From the NCBI GenBank assembly GCA_029974875.1, contig JARKQP010000849.1:1-10131 (forward strand): 10,131 bases of DNA, written 5' to 3'. Positions 3,924-6,740 of the stretch are shown here, in pieces; the first letter of the stretch is position 1, and each line of letters starts with the position of its first letter. A program made the translations under genes and the position numbers. The notes under the pieces were generated by a model. It did no database searches and was not told the origin of the DNA. It saw only the letters and a program-made list of their open reading frames with translations. The DNA comes from Mobilitalea sp. (GTDB taxonomy: Bacteria > Bacillota_A > Clostridia > Lachnospirales > Lachnospiraceae).

Positions 3924-3957
3924 CAAGGCAAAAAGATGATATAAGCTTTTTGTCTTG
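3924..3957. repeat. 12-bp stem-loop of unknown role
   Basis: CAAGGCAAAAAG (3924-3935) pairs with CTTTTTGTCTTG (3946-3957), 11 Watson-Crick pairs plus one G-U, with a 10-base loop. It ends 6 bases before the acetyltransferase remnant begins. No T-run follows the stem on either strand, so an intrinsic terminator is unlikely. It may be a remnant of an inserted or deleted element at the break point. Confidence 0.5.
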
Positions 3958-3963
3958 GCATCG

Positions 3964-4054
3964 CCAGGTGGATACTACGTTATTTCTGTTAGGGAAGGAT
4001 TTTGATGATTTTGGACAGAAGAAAATTATGTTTTCCTTATTAGGGCATGCCTAA
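3964..4054 (+). pseudogene. 3' remnant of a GNAT acetyltransferase gene, copy A
   Basis: The plus strand reads VDTTLFLLGKDFDDFGQKKI then MFSLLGHA and stop (TAA at 4052-4054). This is the C-terminal tail of the same protein whose broken copy lies at 6466-6740, which reads EDTTLFLLGTDFDNFEQKKI then MFPLLGHA. Homology starts abruptly at 3964; the bases before it are unrelated, and there is no start codon or ribosome site. Most differences between the copies are transitions, and the reading frame is kept throughout the tail, so this was coding sequence. It is a fragment of about 28 codons with no likely product. Confidence 0.8.
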
Positions 4055-4181: not shown

Positions 4182-4610
4182 TCAATTGTAAAGGTTTTCA
4201 ATAATCTCCACCATCTGCCTTGGAGTAACAACAAATGGCCTTGCCGGGAAATGCTTCATATTACCGGTAACTAGATAGGTATCATTATCATTCTCTAGAT
4301 GATGAGCTAATGCAACCTCGAAGAACACTGCATCCTCCGGATCCGGATAAATTTCTTCTGATTGGAGAGCATCCTCTTGAATACCTGATTTTATAATTTG
4401 ATGAATAACTGCATGAATACGTTCTGCTGTAAAATGGAACTTTTCTCGCTTCAACACCTCTTCATATTCTTCCAATATCTCCTTATTATAAATCGGAATG
4501 AGTTCGCCACAAAAAATATATTCAATAACCTTATATGGTGCACGTTCCATGGAGTTCTTACTAAGCAATGCTGATACAAGGACATTAGTATCTATAACTG
4601 CATAATACAT
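4182..4610 (-). CDS. PIN-domain toxin of a toxin-antitoxin pair
   Basis: A 142-residue single-domain PIN protein, a metal-dependent ribonuclease fold, of the 'putative toxin, PIN family' (TIGR00305-like) group. The opening YYAVIDTNVLVSALLS carries the first active-site Asp (D7) and N9. Further acidic residues expected around the metal site are E47/E48 in EILEEYEEVL, D90/D93 in YPDPEDAVFFEVAL and D110 in DTYLVTGNMKHFP, the usual end of this family. Length is normal and the gene appears intact. It begins two bases after the antitoxin stop codon (TGA TT ATG), so the two are co-transcribed and coupled. The ribosome site is inside the antitoxin's end. By family it would cleave RNA unless bound by the antitoxin; the target is unknown. 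Confidence 0.9.
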   Translation of the reverse strand: MYYAVIDTNVLVSALLSKNSMERAPYKVIEYIFCGELIPIYNKEILEEYEEVLKREKFHFTAERIHAVIHQIIKSGIQEDALQSEEIYPDPEDAVFFEVALAHHLENDNDTYLVTGNMKHFPARPFVVTPRQMVEIIENLYN

Positions 4611-4612
4611 AA

Positions 4613-4924
4613 TCAGCCACCCTGCTTAGCCCTTCTTTCTGCTCTAACTGCCCGTATTTCATCATTAATCTCATCTAGTCCCATACCTAAGAGGTCATTC
4701 GCCTCAGCTTCTTCCCGCAGGGCAAGAAAAGCCCTCATTCCCTCCGGGTTCTTATAGTTCTTTCGGGTAAGTTTAATATCAAATGGCAGTCCGCCCTCCT
4801 GTAAACACTTTTTTAAAAACATCTTAATCGCTGTTGACATATCTAATCCAAGATTATCAAACAGCTCCGCCGCTTCATTCTTCAGTTCCGTTTCAACTCT
4901 TGTTTGAATTAAACTCGTTTTCAT
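4613..4924 (-). CDS. RelB/DinJ-family ribbon-helix-helix antitoxin
   Basis: A 103-residue antitoxin. The N-terminal half (about 3-50) is the ribbon-helix-helix DNA-binding domain: strand SLIQTRVETELKN, helices AAELFDNLGLDMSTAIKMFLKKCL, then GGLPFDI, all typical of RelB/DinJ. The C-terminal part, ending LDEINDEIRAVRAERRAK, is the usual toxin-wrapping tail. The start is fixed by AGGAGGG upstream. The partner here is a PIN protein and not RelE/YafQ. A strong promoter and a palindrome directly upstream fit autoregulation by the antitoxin or the complex, as known for the family. Confidence 0.92.
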   Translation of the reverse strand: MKTSLIQTRVETELKNEAAELFDNLGLDMSTAIKMFLKKCLQEGGLPFDIKLTRKNYKNPEGMRAFLALREEAEANDLLGMGLDEINDEIRAVRAERRAKQGG

Positions 4925-5158: not shown

Positions 5159-5240
5159 ATTTTACAAGTGCCATACTTTGGTAAATCAATAATATTTCAT
5201 AGTTGTTATACGCCTATTTATTTAATGGAGGATCTGTTTT

Positions 5241-5267
5241 ATGAGAAAATATATTATTTTTGCATAG
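5241..5267 (+). CDS. Putative 8-codon leader peptide, copy 1 (MRKYIIFA)
   Basis: ATG-AGA-AAA-TAT-ATT-ATT-TTT-GCA-TAG, with GGAGG at 5227-5231 nine bases upstream. It sits 81 bases before the CD3324-family gene. A second ORF of exactly the same length, also ending GCA-TAG and placed before the gene at 5877, is the main support. The last base of the stop codon is the first base of the stem-loop's left arm, an arrangement typical of ribosome-controlled attenuators. Translation is unproven. Confidence 0.55.
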   Translation: MRKYIIFA

Positions 5268-5282
5268 CACTGGCTATTGCAA
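5260..5282 (+). repeat. 23-bp leader motif, copy 1
   Basis: This motif begins TTGCATAGCA and ends GGCTATTGCAA. It matches 5789-5811 at 21 of 23 positions. It is itself an imperfect dyad (TTGCA-TAGC against GCTATTGCAA, one bulged base). It contains the last codon and stop of the leader ORF. Confidence 0.85.
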
Positions 5283-5356
5283 TTTTATATGAATAATTTG
5301 TTGTAGCCATTGCTATTCCTGATAGTTTATTAAATTTAGGAGGGCATTATGGGCTA
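5267..5356 (+). promoter_or_regulatory. Putative translation-attenuation leader RNA, copy 1
   Basis: Arm 1 GCACTGGCTA (5267-5276) pairs with arm 2 TAGCCATTGC (5304-5313), 9 of 10 pairs. Arm 2 can instead pair with the start region of the CD3324-family gene: TAGCC with GGCTA (5352-5356), AT with AT (5349-5350), TGC with GCA (5344-5346). That alternative traps the start codon and the end of the ribosome site. The same three-arm layout recurs at 5796-5886. Confidence 0.55.
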
Positions 5357-5624
5357 TATAAGAGCAGAAGAAGTTCTGCCGCAGGAAATCATCCAGTTAA
5401 TACAGAACTATATTGACGGGAAGAATATTTATATCCCACGAAAAGAAAGCAATAAAAAGGAATGGGGAAACGGAACTCTGATACGGCAAGAATTAAAGAC
5501 GAGAAACCTATTCATTCTTTCTGATTTTTACCAAGGCTTAAGTGTTACAGAATTAGCAAAAAAGTATTTTTTATCCGAAAAAAGTATACAGCGAATTATC
5601 CGGGAAATGAAAAAAACAGCATGA
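5349..5624 (+). CDS. CD3324-family small helix-turn-helix protein
   Basis: A 91-residue intact protein resembling the CD3324 family (related to Mor-type activators) of Clostridia. The N-terminal part GYIRAEEVLPQEIIQLIQNYIDGKNIYIPRKE has the family pattern 'LPxExxxxIQxYxxGxxIYIP'. The basic GNGTLIRQELKTRN follows. The C-terminus GLSVTELAKKYFLSEKSIQRIIREMK (about 63-88) is a predicted helix-turn-helix, so it probably binds DNA. AGGAGGG ends 4 bases before the start codon. It has its own promoter, a structured leader and a terminator directly after it, so it forms a single-gene unit between the toxin-antitoxin pair and the DUF1062 gene. Its target genes are unknown; sharing the leader element with the next gene hints at a common stimulus. 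Confidence 0.85.
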   Translation: MGYIRAEEVLPQEIIQLIQNYIDGKNIYIPRKESNKKEWGNGTLIRQELKTRNLFILSDFYQGLSVTELAKKYFLSEKSIQRIIREMKKTA

Positions 5625-5654
5625 TATAACAACTCTGATAATAAGCTATGTAAT

Positions 5655-5690
5655 GAGCTGATCCGTAAAGGGATCGGCTCAAACTTTTTT
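5655..5690 (+). terminator. Intrinsic terminator after the CD3324-family gene
   Basis: GAGCTGATCC (5655-5664) pairs with GGATCGGCTC (5671-5680), ten pairs including one G-U, loop GTAAAG, followed by AAAC and six Ts. It lies 30 bases after the stop codon and separates this gene from the second leader. Confidence 0.88.
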
Positions 5691-5769
5691 ATAAAAATGT
5701 TTAAGGTCGTAATCAAAATTCCTGTATGCTAAACTATTGCAAAACCATAGAGGAAGGAAAATCATTTTC

Positions 5770-5796
5770 ATGACTACACCTGTATTTCTTGCATAG
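5770..5796 (+). CDS. Putative 8-codon leader peptide, copy 2 (MTTPVFLA)
   Basis: ATG-ACT-ACA-CCT-GTA-TTT-CTT-GCA-TAG, the same length and the same Ala-stop ending as the ORF at 5241. Between the two ORFs 18 of 27 bases match, yet the peptides differ at most positions. The ribosome site AGGAAGG (5751-5757) is 12 bases upstream, longer than ideal. The stop codon's last base opens the stem-loop. Translation is unproven. No clear promoter was seen; TATGCT at 5725-5730 has no good -35 partner. Confidence 0.5.
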   Translation: MTTPVFLA

Positions 5797-5811
5797 CAAA
5801 GGCTATTGCAA
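5789..5811 (+). repeat. 23-bp leader motif, copy 2
   Basis: Matches 5260-5282 at 21 of 23 positions and sits 88 bases before the DUF1062 start codon, against 89 bases for copy 1 before its gene. A partial relative, CTATTGCAAAACC, lies at 5735-5747 just upstream of the second leader ORF. Confidence 0.85.
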
Positions 5812-5886
5812 ATCCAAATAATATCATACTGTAATAGCCTTTGCAAATCCGTCAATTAACTTGAAGGAGATGCAAAATGAGCTATT
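5796..5886 (+). promoter_or_regulatory. Putative translation-attenuation leader RNA, copy 2
   Basis: Arm 1 GCAAAGGCTATT (5796-5807) is perfectly complementary to arm 2 AATAGCCTTTGC (5833-5844). Arm 2 can instead pair with the gene start: AATAGC (5833-5838) with GCTATT (5881-5886), and TTTGCA (5840-5845) with TGCAAA (5871-5876). In that form the start codon sits in an internal loop and the ribosome site GAAGGAG (5863-5869) in the hairpin loop. The absence of a T-run argues for control of translation rather than termination. Confidence 0.6.
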
Positions 5887-6488
5887 CAAGAAAATTTGAA
5901 TATGAAATCCTACCAACGGAAGCTTACTCCGTTATTCGCCACTGCCCTATCTGTGGCATTAAATCAACATATCGTAGCAGCAACAATTTCCGGGTTAATG
6001 CAAATGGGAACTTGCTTGATGTATGGTTGATTTACCAATGCAAAAAATGCAAGCATACCTATAATCTAACGATCCATGAACGGCTTAGAAAGGAGGCTCT
6101 TCCATCCCATTATTATAAAAGGTTAATGGAAAATGATCATGAACTTGGAATGGAATATGGAATGGACCTGGCTGTTTTTTCGAGAAATAAAGTGGAAATT
6201 GATAAGAGCAGCATCCAGTATCAGATTGTTCGTCTTGACCTGCAAGATCCTACTGCTTTAGATGGGCAGATAAGATATCGTCCTGGTGACTTGATAAAAA
6301 TCAGGAATCCATATAAACTACAAATAAGAACGGATAAGATTATTTCGGAAATACTGCACATTTCCCGGAAGCAAGAAAAGCTGCTGGAGAATTCAGGTGC
6401 CATTATTCTTCTTAAGGAATATTCCCTGAAGGATATTGAACTATTGATAAAGGGGGACATTAATCATGGATCAGCGGTATGTCATTAA
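5877..6488 (+). CDS. DUF1062-family protein with a four-Cys zinc-ribbon-like motif
   Basis: A 203-residue cytoplasmic protein recognised as DUF1062. The N-terminal part has two Cys pairs, CPIC (C23, C26) and CKKC (C55, C58), likely to bind zinc. The family-typical core lies between them: YRSSNNFRVNANGNLLDVWL. The rest is soluble with no membrane segment or signal peptide. The biochemical role of the family is not known to me. GAAGGAG stands 7 bases before the start. The gene's last 23 bases overlap the start of the acetyltransferase gene at 6466, so the two were once a coupled operon. The leader upstream suggests regulated translation. The protein appears full length. Confidence 0.85.
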   Translation: MSYSRKFEYEILPTEAYSVIRHCPICGIKSTYRSSNNFRVNANGNLLDVWLIYQCKKCKHTYNLTIHERLRKEALPSHYYKRLMENDHELGMEYGMDLAVFSRNKVEIDKSSIQYQIVRLDLQDPTALDGQIRYRPGDLIKIRNPYKLQIRTDKIISEILHISRKQEKLLENSGAIILLKEYSLKDIELLIKGDINHGSAVCH

Positions 6489-6740
6489 TAAATCCTACCG
6501 GGATAACGATTTATTAAGGGAAAGCTTCAATATACTTGCCCAGGAAACCTTTGGCCTGTATTTTGAGGACTGGTATCAGAATGGATTAAAACAGTGACTT
6601 TAGGATTTACTCCGAGGGAAAGGGACGGATTTATCATGTCAGAAGTCCACCAGGAGGATACTACGTTATTTCTGTTAGGGACGGATTTTGATAATTTTGA
6701 ACAGAAGAAAATTATGTTTCCCTTATTGGGGCACGCTTGA
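6466..6740 (+). pseudogene. GNAT N-acetyltransferase gene with its middle deleted, copy B
   Basis: The 5' part reads MDQRYVINKSYRDNDLLRES, then FNILAQETFGLYFEDWYQNG, and stops after 43 codons (TGA 6595-6597). This is the N-terminus of a GNAT acetyltransferase. The plus-two frame then reads TVTLGFTPRERDGFIMSEV, EDTTLFLLGTDFDNFEQKKI and MFPLLGHA to TGA at 6738-6740, the C-terminus of the same family. From memory such proteins are about 270-290 residues, so roughly 190 central residues, including the acetyl-CoA-binding fold, are missing, with the junction near 6586-6594 and out of frame. The start (AGGGGG upstream) is intact and overlaps the DUF1062 gene. A 43-residue product is possible but could not be an enzyme. 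Its C-terminal half repeats at 3964. Confidence 0.85.

Follow-up and report, generated by a model that had tools for sequence, protein, structure and literature searches.

The window, i.e. the whole 10,131-nt stretch of Mobilitalea sp. (Lachnospiraceae) DNA that was analysed, contains two unrelated genes that each carry the same leader RNA switch around an 8-codon ORF. The first gene encodes a Mor/HTH-like protein of the CD3324 family. The second encodes a DUF1062 protein, whose N-terminal cysteines are invariant in the family alignment and whose structure model has a pLDDT of 90.7. The features of both units are given below, with the alternately pairing stretches of each leader numbered as segments 1 to 4.

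5227–5240, + strand: ribosome-binding site of leader ORF 1 (GGAGG, 9 nt from its ATG) with the spacer, at the start of a 56-nt repeat
5241–5267, + strand: leader ORF 1, MRKYIIFA, 8 codons, stop TAG
5260–5268, + strand: segment 1 of copy 1 (TTGCATAGC), partner segment 2 (helix 1:2)
5267–5282, + strand: segment 2 of copy 1 (GCACTGGCTATTGCAA), partner segment 1 or 3
5298–5321, + strand: segment 3 of copy 1, partner segment 2 or 4
5335–5358, + strand: segment 4 of copy 1, with Shine-Dalgarno, ATG and CD3324 codons 2–3 (GGC TAT), based on RNAalifold, pair counts and codon bias
5349–5624, + strand: CD3324-family gene (Mor/HTH-like), 91 aa (NF040785 CD3324_fam, E = 4.2e-32; PF08765, E = 7.6e-9)
5654–5681, + strand: terminator-like hairpin and T run 3' of the CD3324 gene (3 such sites in the region vs a shuffle mean of 1.3)
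5751–5769, + strand: ribosome-binding site of leader ORF 2 (AGGAAGG) with the spacer
5770–5796, + strand: leader ORF 2, MTTPVFLA, 8 codons, stop TAG
5789–5797, + strand: segment 1 of copy 2
5796–5811, + strand: segment 2 of copy 2, inverted repeat with segment 3
5830–5850, + strand: segment 3 of copy 2, inverted repeat with segment 2
5864–5886, + strand: segment 4 of copy 2, with Shine-Dalgarno, ATG and DUF1062 codons 2–3 (AGC TAT)
5877–6488, + strand: DUF1062 gene, 203 aa, N-terminal cysteine pairs, putative S4-like C-terminus (PF06353, E = 2.1e-33)

The common assembly that a preliminary description had proposed ahead of both genes is found in all its parts: a ribosome-binding site, an 8-codon ORF ending in GCA-TAG in both copies, a stop codon within a near-identical 23-base motif, and pairing arms. 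The motif (TTGCATAGCANNGGCTATTGCAA) lies at 5260–5282 and 5789–5811, is identical at 21 of 23 positions and has no match in 200 shuffles of the window. Its distance to the start codon is, as had been claimed, 89 nt in copy 1 (5260 to 5349) and 88 nt in copy 2 (5789 to 5877), and it forms the end of a 56-nt direct repeat (5227–5282 and 5756–5811) with 71% identity. The long pairing arm indeed starts at the last base of the stop codon, with 5796–5810 pairing with 5830–5844 in copy 2; the counterpart in copy 1, read by eye, is 5267–5282 with 5298–5314. The genes themselves had been described as sharing no similarity, which holds for the genes as such but not for their common start, ATG-NGC-TAT, which is part of the RNA switch.

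The hairpin at 5654–5681 may perhaps separate two transcription units. In a consensus scan of the window, the intervals from leader to gene (5241–5349 and 5770–5877, + strand) contain no terminator-like site of the kind expected in a transcription attenuator, and a search of the window with the Rfam 15 curated covariance models gave no match at E up to 1. A pair of genes for a RelB/DinJ-type antitoxin and a PIN-domain toxin lies directly upstream on the minus strand (4182–4924). By eye, a broken GNAT copy (a 43-aa start, then the C-terminal part) follows the DUF1062 gene at 6466–6740, and a second GNAT C-terminal remnant is seen at about 3932–4051, the two remnants flanking the toxin–antitoxin pair and both leader units. 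The 43-aa GNAT piece alone has no Pfam match.

Recurrence of the element and its target genes

Many Firmicutes from gut and soil contain the switch. An exact motif scan of one genome per species (84,980 species) yielded at least 120 stretches with the motif, among the matches listed mostly from Lachnospiraceae, plus other Clostridia, four C. difficile, Sporomusa, Desulfosporosinus, Lysinibacillus, Brevibacillus and one Bacillus. Together with the two copies in the window, the matches listed amount to 123 instances. In 118 of these the ORF has a start, a ribosome-binding site and a length of 8–9 codons, in three it is 10 or 11 codons long, and in two the script finds none. The Ala-stop ending of these instances is not evidence, because the search pattern itself fixes it, and a covariance model (R1) was therefore built from 94 cores, with helix 2:3 as the modelled structure.

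R1 was searched against 299 genomes from the family of a Kineothrix genome (G001) and 398 from its phylum, with G001 in both sets, and matched in 37 and 5 genomes, respectively. This gave 62 distinct matches, 58 from the family search, where seven opposite-strand rows were set aside, and four new ones from the phylum search. All 62 were examined for the downstream gene, which is a CD3324 gene in 40, a DUF1062 gene in 19 and neither in three. The leader ORF is present in all 59 matches before either family, 57 by script and two by eye (L179 near a contig end, L220 shifted), while the same script is positive in 26 of 908 upstream control windows and in none of the three matches before neither family. 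A search for the element ahead of CD3324 and DUF1062 genes had been proposed; the element is not confined to the window, and 59 of the 62 R1 matches precede either family.

Homologous genes lacking the element, named beforehand as an outcome that would speak against it, do occur for part of both families. In a class-wide family search (196 genomes), about 24 of 29 CD3324 rows are without the element and about 5 of 29 have it or a variant of it (by eye); DUF1062 is above the cut-off in four of the 196 genomes, in two of which the element is found. Part of the DUF1062 genes have another leader, or none. L023 keeps segments 3 and 4 ahead of DUF1062 with no leader ORF within 260 nt upstream, and the DUF1062 loci L033 and L192 have the leader with long inserts; in L033 the insert lies in the loop between segments 2 and 3, and the leader and both arms are retained.

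The CD3324 relatives L138, L140, L142 and L149 show a different conserved-looking 5' region (GCTCC..GGAGC), which has no Rfam match. The relatives L141, L143, L147, L153–L157 and L162 are without the element, several of them following terminator-like or TTATCGTG sequences, and could, as a guess, possibly derive from integrative elements. The CD3324 family search also matches the Bacillus subtilis control genome, a convenient host.

Competing helices and the start of the gene

Segment 1 is the end of the leader ORF, segment 2 is GCANNGGCTATTGCAA, segment 3 is the complement of segment 2 followed by TCC, and segment 4 consists of the Shine-Dalgarno sequence, the start codon and codons 2–3 (NGC TAT) of the gene. 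Because segments 2 and 4 resemble each other, segment 3 is able to pair with either one. The helices 1:2, 2:3 and 3:4 are accordingly predicted to be mutually exclusive; compensatory changes occur in all three, and 3:4 would hide the ribosome-binding site of the gene. RNAalifold, unprompted, returns helices 1:2 plus 3:4 from 93 motif-selected sequences.

Covariation in helices 1:2 and 2:3 was counted in 52 of the 59 R1 rows, some of which also have the exact motif; L193, L196, L214, L217, L218, L220 and the second L184 match were left out before counting, being shifted or long. Helix 1:2 reaches 94.4% pairing and 22 double-change cells, and its covariation score is 0.166 vs 0.071 in shuffles. 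For helix 2:3 the values are 82.4%, 45 cells and 0.187 vs 0.111, and as R1 models 2:3, the rows found with it lean to this helix and not to 1:2. None of 500 shuffles reaches the score of either helix, and slid versions of the two are only 24–52% paired. Examples of the pairings are AACGCATAGC with GCTATTGCGTT (L221) and AATGAGTAGC with GCTATTCATT (L181). Helix 3:4, counted in the 93 motif-selected rows, reaches 95.2% pairing, 28 double-change cells and a score of 0.149 vs 0.087 (0 of 500 shuffles), and in three rows codon 2 changes from NGC to NAC with the matching change in segment 3. By another measure, the count of pairs with double changes, the result is less extreme: the observed values are reached by 16, 16 and 11 of 500 shuffles for 1:2, 2:3 and 3:4, respectively, and all of these shuffles leave shared ancestry in place.

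The codon usage at the gene start agrees with the third helix. Serine at codon 2 of leader-bearing genes is encoded by AGC in 93 of 93 cases and glycine by GGC in 61 of 62, as compared to 249 of 1205 serine and 200 of 890 glycine codons in the rest of these genes. The energy of the 3:4 duplex is −18.4 for native partners, −17.9 when the partner is swapped within a family, −14.9 when it is swapped across families and −9.7 with a shuffled partner. From the codon-2 bias and the 3:4 pairing it follows that the MSY/MGY start, the sole similarity between both genes, is held at the RNA level.

Predicted response to ribosome position

The loci hold 227 distinct family genes (152 CD3324, 75 DUF1062), 170 of which pass a strict leader test; 138 of these leaders come from motif-scan loci or the window, 30 from R1 loci and two from family-search loci. 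The other 57 genes include variant elements outside the strict pattern, e.g. L207, L208, L217 and L218. The strict leaders have 8 codons in 136 cases, 9 in 22, 7 in eight, 10 in three and 11 in one, and their stop codon is TAG in 168 and TAA in two.

Ribosome-masked folding of the 170 leaders gives a cost of opening the ribosome-binding site of the gene of 8.2 kcal/mol, in absolute terms still closed, when the P site is 4–5 codons before the last sense codon, compared to 12.8 kcal/mol with the P site on the last codon and 11.2 without a ribosome. The difference between early halt and last codon exceeds 2 kcal in 89% of the leaders and is abolished by one shuffle of 11 segment-2 bases per leader (12.1 vs 12.9), while enforcing helix 1:2 brings the cost to 12.3 (120 of the 170 leaders). 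When the leading edge is set anywhere from +12 to +18, the lowest cost in an 8-codon ORF stays at codons 2–5 (85 of the 170). In the window, the DUF1062 copy follows this order, with 12.2 for the early stall, 16.5 at the last codon and 14.1 free; the corresponding values for the CD3324 copy are 7.9, 14.4 and 8.0, so that the free RNA opens as easily here as the stalled one. Unpaired probabilities show the switch far less clearly: the Shine-Dalgarno sequence is near 0.2 in every state, and the AUG is at 0.40 when free and 0.75 with an early ribosome, but at 0.63 even when the ribosome has reached the last codon.

On the basis of the conserved anatomy, the gene specificity, the covariation of the three helices and these folding models, each copy is likely to be a ribosome-sensing translational attenuator that is induced by an early halt on the leader ORF. 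At rest, with a ribosome that quickly reaches the leader stop or with no ribosome at all, hairpin 1:2 and helix 3:4 would form, and 3:4 would bury the Shine-Dalgarno sequence, the start codon and codons 2–3, keeping the gene off. A ribosome that halts around codons 2–5 would cover segment 1 and not segment 2; the uncovered segment 2 could then capture segment 3, by which segment 4 would be freed and the gene translated. The 8-codon length and the stop inside segment 1 would place a finishing ribosome over segment 2, so that the gene stays off. What is sensed is probably a slowdown in early elongation, of the kind that some ribosome-targeting antibiotics cause, and the leader would mostly read the position of the ribosome and not one peptide. 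We infer the direction of the switch in cells, its stimulus and the function of the proteins.

A different leader is found at ten DUF1062 loci (L024, L094, L099, L117, L005, L048, L056, L063, L064 and L215), in hosts that include C. difficile (four loci), Sporomusa, Maledivibacter, Brevibacillus, Clostridium puniceum and Pseudobacteroides. It is unrelated to the first leader, has 12–17 codons (one reads further) with NPP or IPP, and is followed by a hairpin that holds the Shine-Dalgarno sequence. The predicted opening cost falls as the P site reaches the Pro-Pro (codons 8–10) in L117, L094, L024, L063, L056 and L005; the fall is gradual in L048 and L099, weak in L064 and ahead of Pro-Pro in L215. 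Since the cost stays low for later codons, Pro-Pro is predicted to be the first and not the sole opening position. As judged from these models, the two unrelated leaders before DUF1062 would both make sense as stall sensors.

Alternative readings and significance

The 170 leaders encode 111 distinct peptides of 7–11 residues. The conserved peptide with a hydrophobic end that had been assumed from the two copies in the window turns out to be a trait of many but not all relatives, with MTEFSIK and MFNKKETLVA off the pattern. IFVI is an erm-type arrest peptide motif. RLR is also described as an arrest peptide motif (PMC8632094, PMC6310831). No motif is common to all 111 distinct peptides, and neither RLR nor IFVI is found among the peptides listed. 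Some leader types look exchanged between the two families, as if copied (L081, L082, L110 and L021), the peptides being MGTPYYVA/MGTPYYIA, METPVIFA/MTTPIFIA and MRRYVINA before DUF1062.

In a strict sensor of the ErmC type, one drug and a defined nascent peptide would set the stall codon, and the proteins would be resistance factors for that drug. Several peptides do recur (MRRYVMFA, MTTPVxFA, MLNPIVIVA), some in different codings, such as TTPVCF with four codings in five sequences, and Pro (42) or Tyr (30) occupies codon 4 in 72 of the 111 distinct peptides, at or adjoining the predicted activating P-site codon, although this is no more than a correlation, in lineages that have it in common by descent. 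Across the family, however, the peptides are diverse in sequence and length, and as they vary this widely, a fixed single drug–peptide pair is unlikely for the family as a whole. Codon variability in the leader is 1.31 at the third position vs 1.20 at the first and 1.39 at the second, and this lack of a third-position excess leaves no sign of selection at the amino-acid level; the strict peptide sensor is considered unlikely. The recurrent Pro or Tyr at codon 4 would also suit an attenuator in which a run of regulatory codons senses starvation for an amino acid or charged tRNA, but the 111 peptides are without a common codon run and neither target family is annotated as a biosynthetic enzyme or tRNA synthetase, which makes such a sensor highly improbable.

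The Mor/HTH-like domain of the CD3324 protein, together with the imperfect dyad that the motif forms ahead of both genes, could suggest a DNA operator, i.e. a 23-bp partial palindrome through which the CD3324 protein regulates itself and controls DUF1062. This is very unlikely: the dyad is off by one base, the leader ORF and its stop are retained (including TAA in L215 and TGA in L135), the covariation in helices 2:3 and 3:4 involves bases further downstream and in the coding sequence, and the motif is located within an ORF, downstream of the ribosome-binding site of that ORF. The folding results bear on a further reading, in which leader ribosomes repress and a loss of initiation (starvation, cold, initiation inhibitors) activates the gene by way of 2:3, the thermodynamically preferred fold. 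Without a ribosome, 2:3 prevails over 1:2 at equilibrium (a mean of 11.2 vs 1.6 pairs), enforcing 1:2 lowers the stability of the ensemble by 4.3 kcal/mol, and the ribosome-free opening cost is below that at the last codon (11.2 vs 12.8; 8.0 vs 14.4 for the CD3324 copy in the window). Conversely, the mean cost is lower with an early-stalled ribosome (8.2) than without one, and hairpin 1:2, conserved by covariation, would be left without an evident role, for which reason this opposite direction appears improbable. Given the equilibrium preference for 2:3, induction by an early halt requires for its resting off state either that 1:2 forms first, co-transcriptionally, or that ribosomes are at the stop.

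The ermC-type attenuator has four alternating segments and a leader ORF, on which a stalled ribosome frees the ribosome-binding site of the gene. The resemblance to erm and cat leaders that had been put forward, with a leader ORF and alternative folds, is backed by the leader ORF in 59 of 59 R1 matches before either family and by the three covarying helices. The element shares the four segments and the leader ORF with the ermC type, and release by a stalled ribosome is predicted here as well. In contrast to the ermC type, its 8-codon ORF has the stop in segment 1, its peptides are diverse, activation is predicted at codons 2–5, pairing extends into codons 2–3 of the gene and the target families are uncharacterised. 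The control of ermC is named translation attenuation in one account (PMC6310831).

Other leaders share some of these traits. The cplR leader of C. difficile, whose mRNA is induced by retapamulin and lincomycin, resembles the element in being a short uORF in Clostridia with a stem that hides the Shine-Dalgarno sequence; as described (PMC10201436), it differs by its 3-codon uORF MR[I/M] and an intrinsic terminator with poly-U, whereas no terminator-like site was picked up by the consensus scan of the two window leaders. In E. coli, the toiL uORF before topAI is reported to sense several antibiotic classes via stalls at different positions, but it differs from the element in sequence, phylum and targets and, according to that report, works with Rho-dependent termination (PMC12121999). 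The uORFC-6-1 motif before hflX, a ribosome-stress gene, is likewise a structured uORF in Firmicutes, but is characterised in its description by a conserved Arg-Leu-Arg peptide, a predominantly Bacillales distribution and a different gene (PMC8632094). A literature search found no earlier description of the present leader element, the design of which is unlike that of leaders with a fixed arrest peptide, in that the ORF would serve as a ruler, and one arm of the leader is a copy of the start region of the gene itself.

The shared switch points to an undescribed ribosome-stress response. It is conceivable, as a tentative extension, that this is a widespread Bacillota ribosome-stress regulon, in which a peptide-indifferent attenuator with an 8-codon ruler switches on HTH and zinc-ribbon/S4-like families (with GNAT acetyltransferases following in part of the cases) that protect, rescue or modify ribosomes, with DUF1062 recruited twice into stall sensing via two unrelated leaders. 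For two uncharacterised families the leaders provide a first testable handle, suggesting that the proteins are needed when ribosomes stall. As the element is present in many gut Lachnospiraceae genomes, C. difficile and bacilli, it may mark an intrinsic response of these bacteria to ribosome-targeting drugs.
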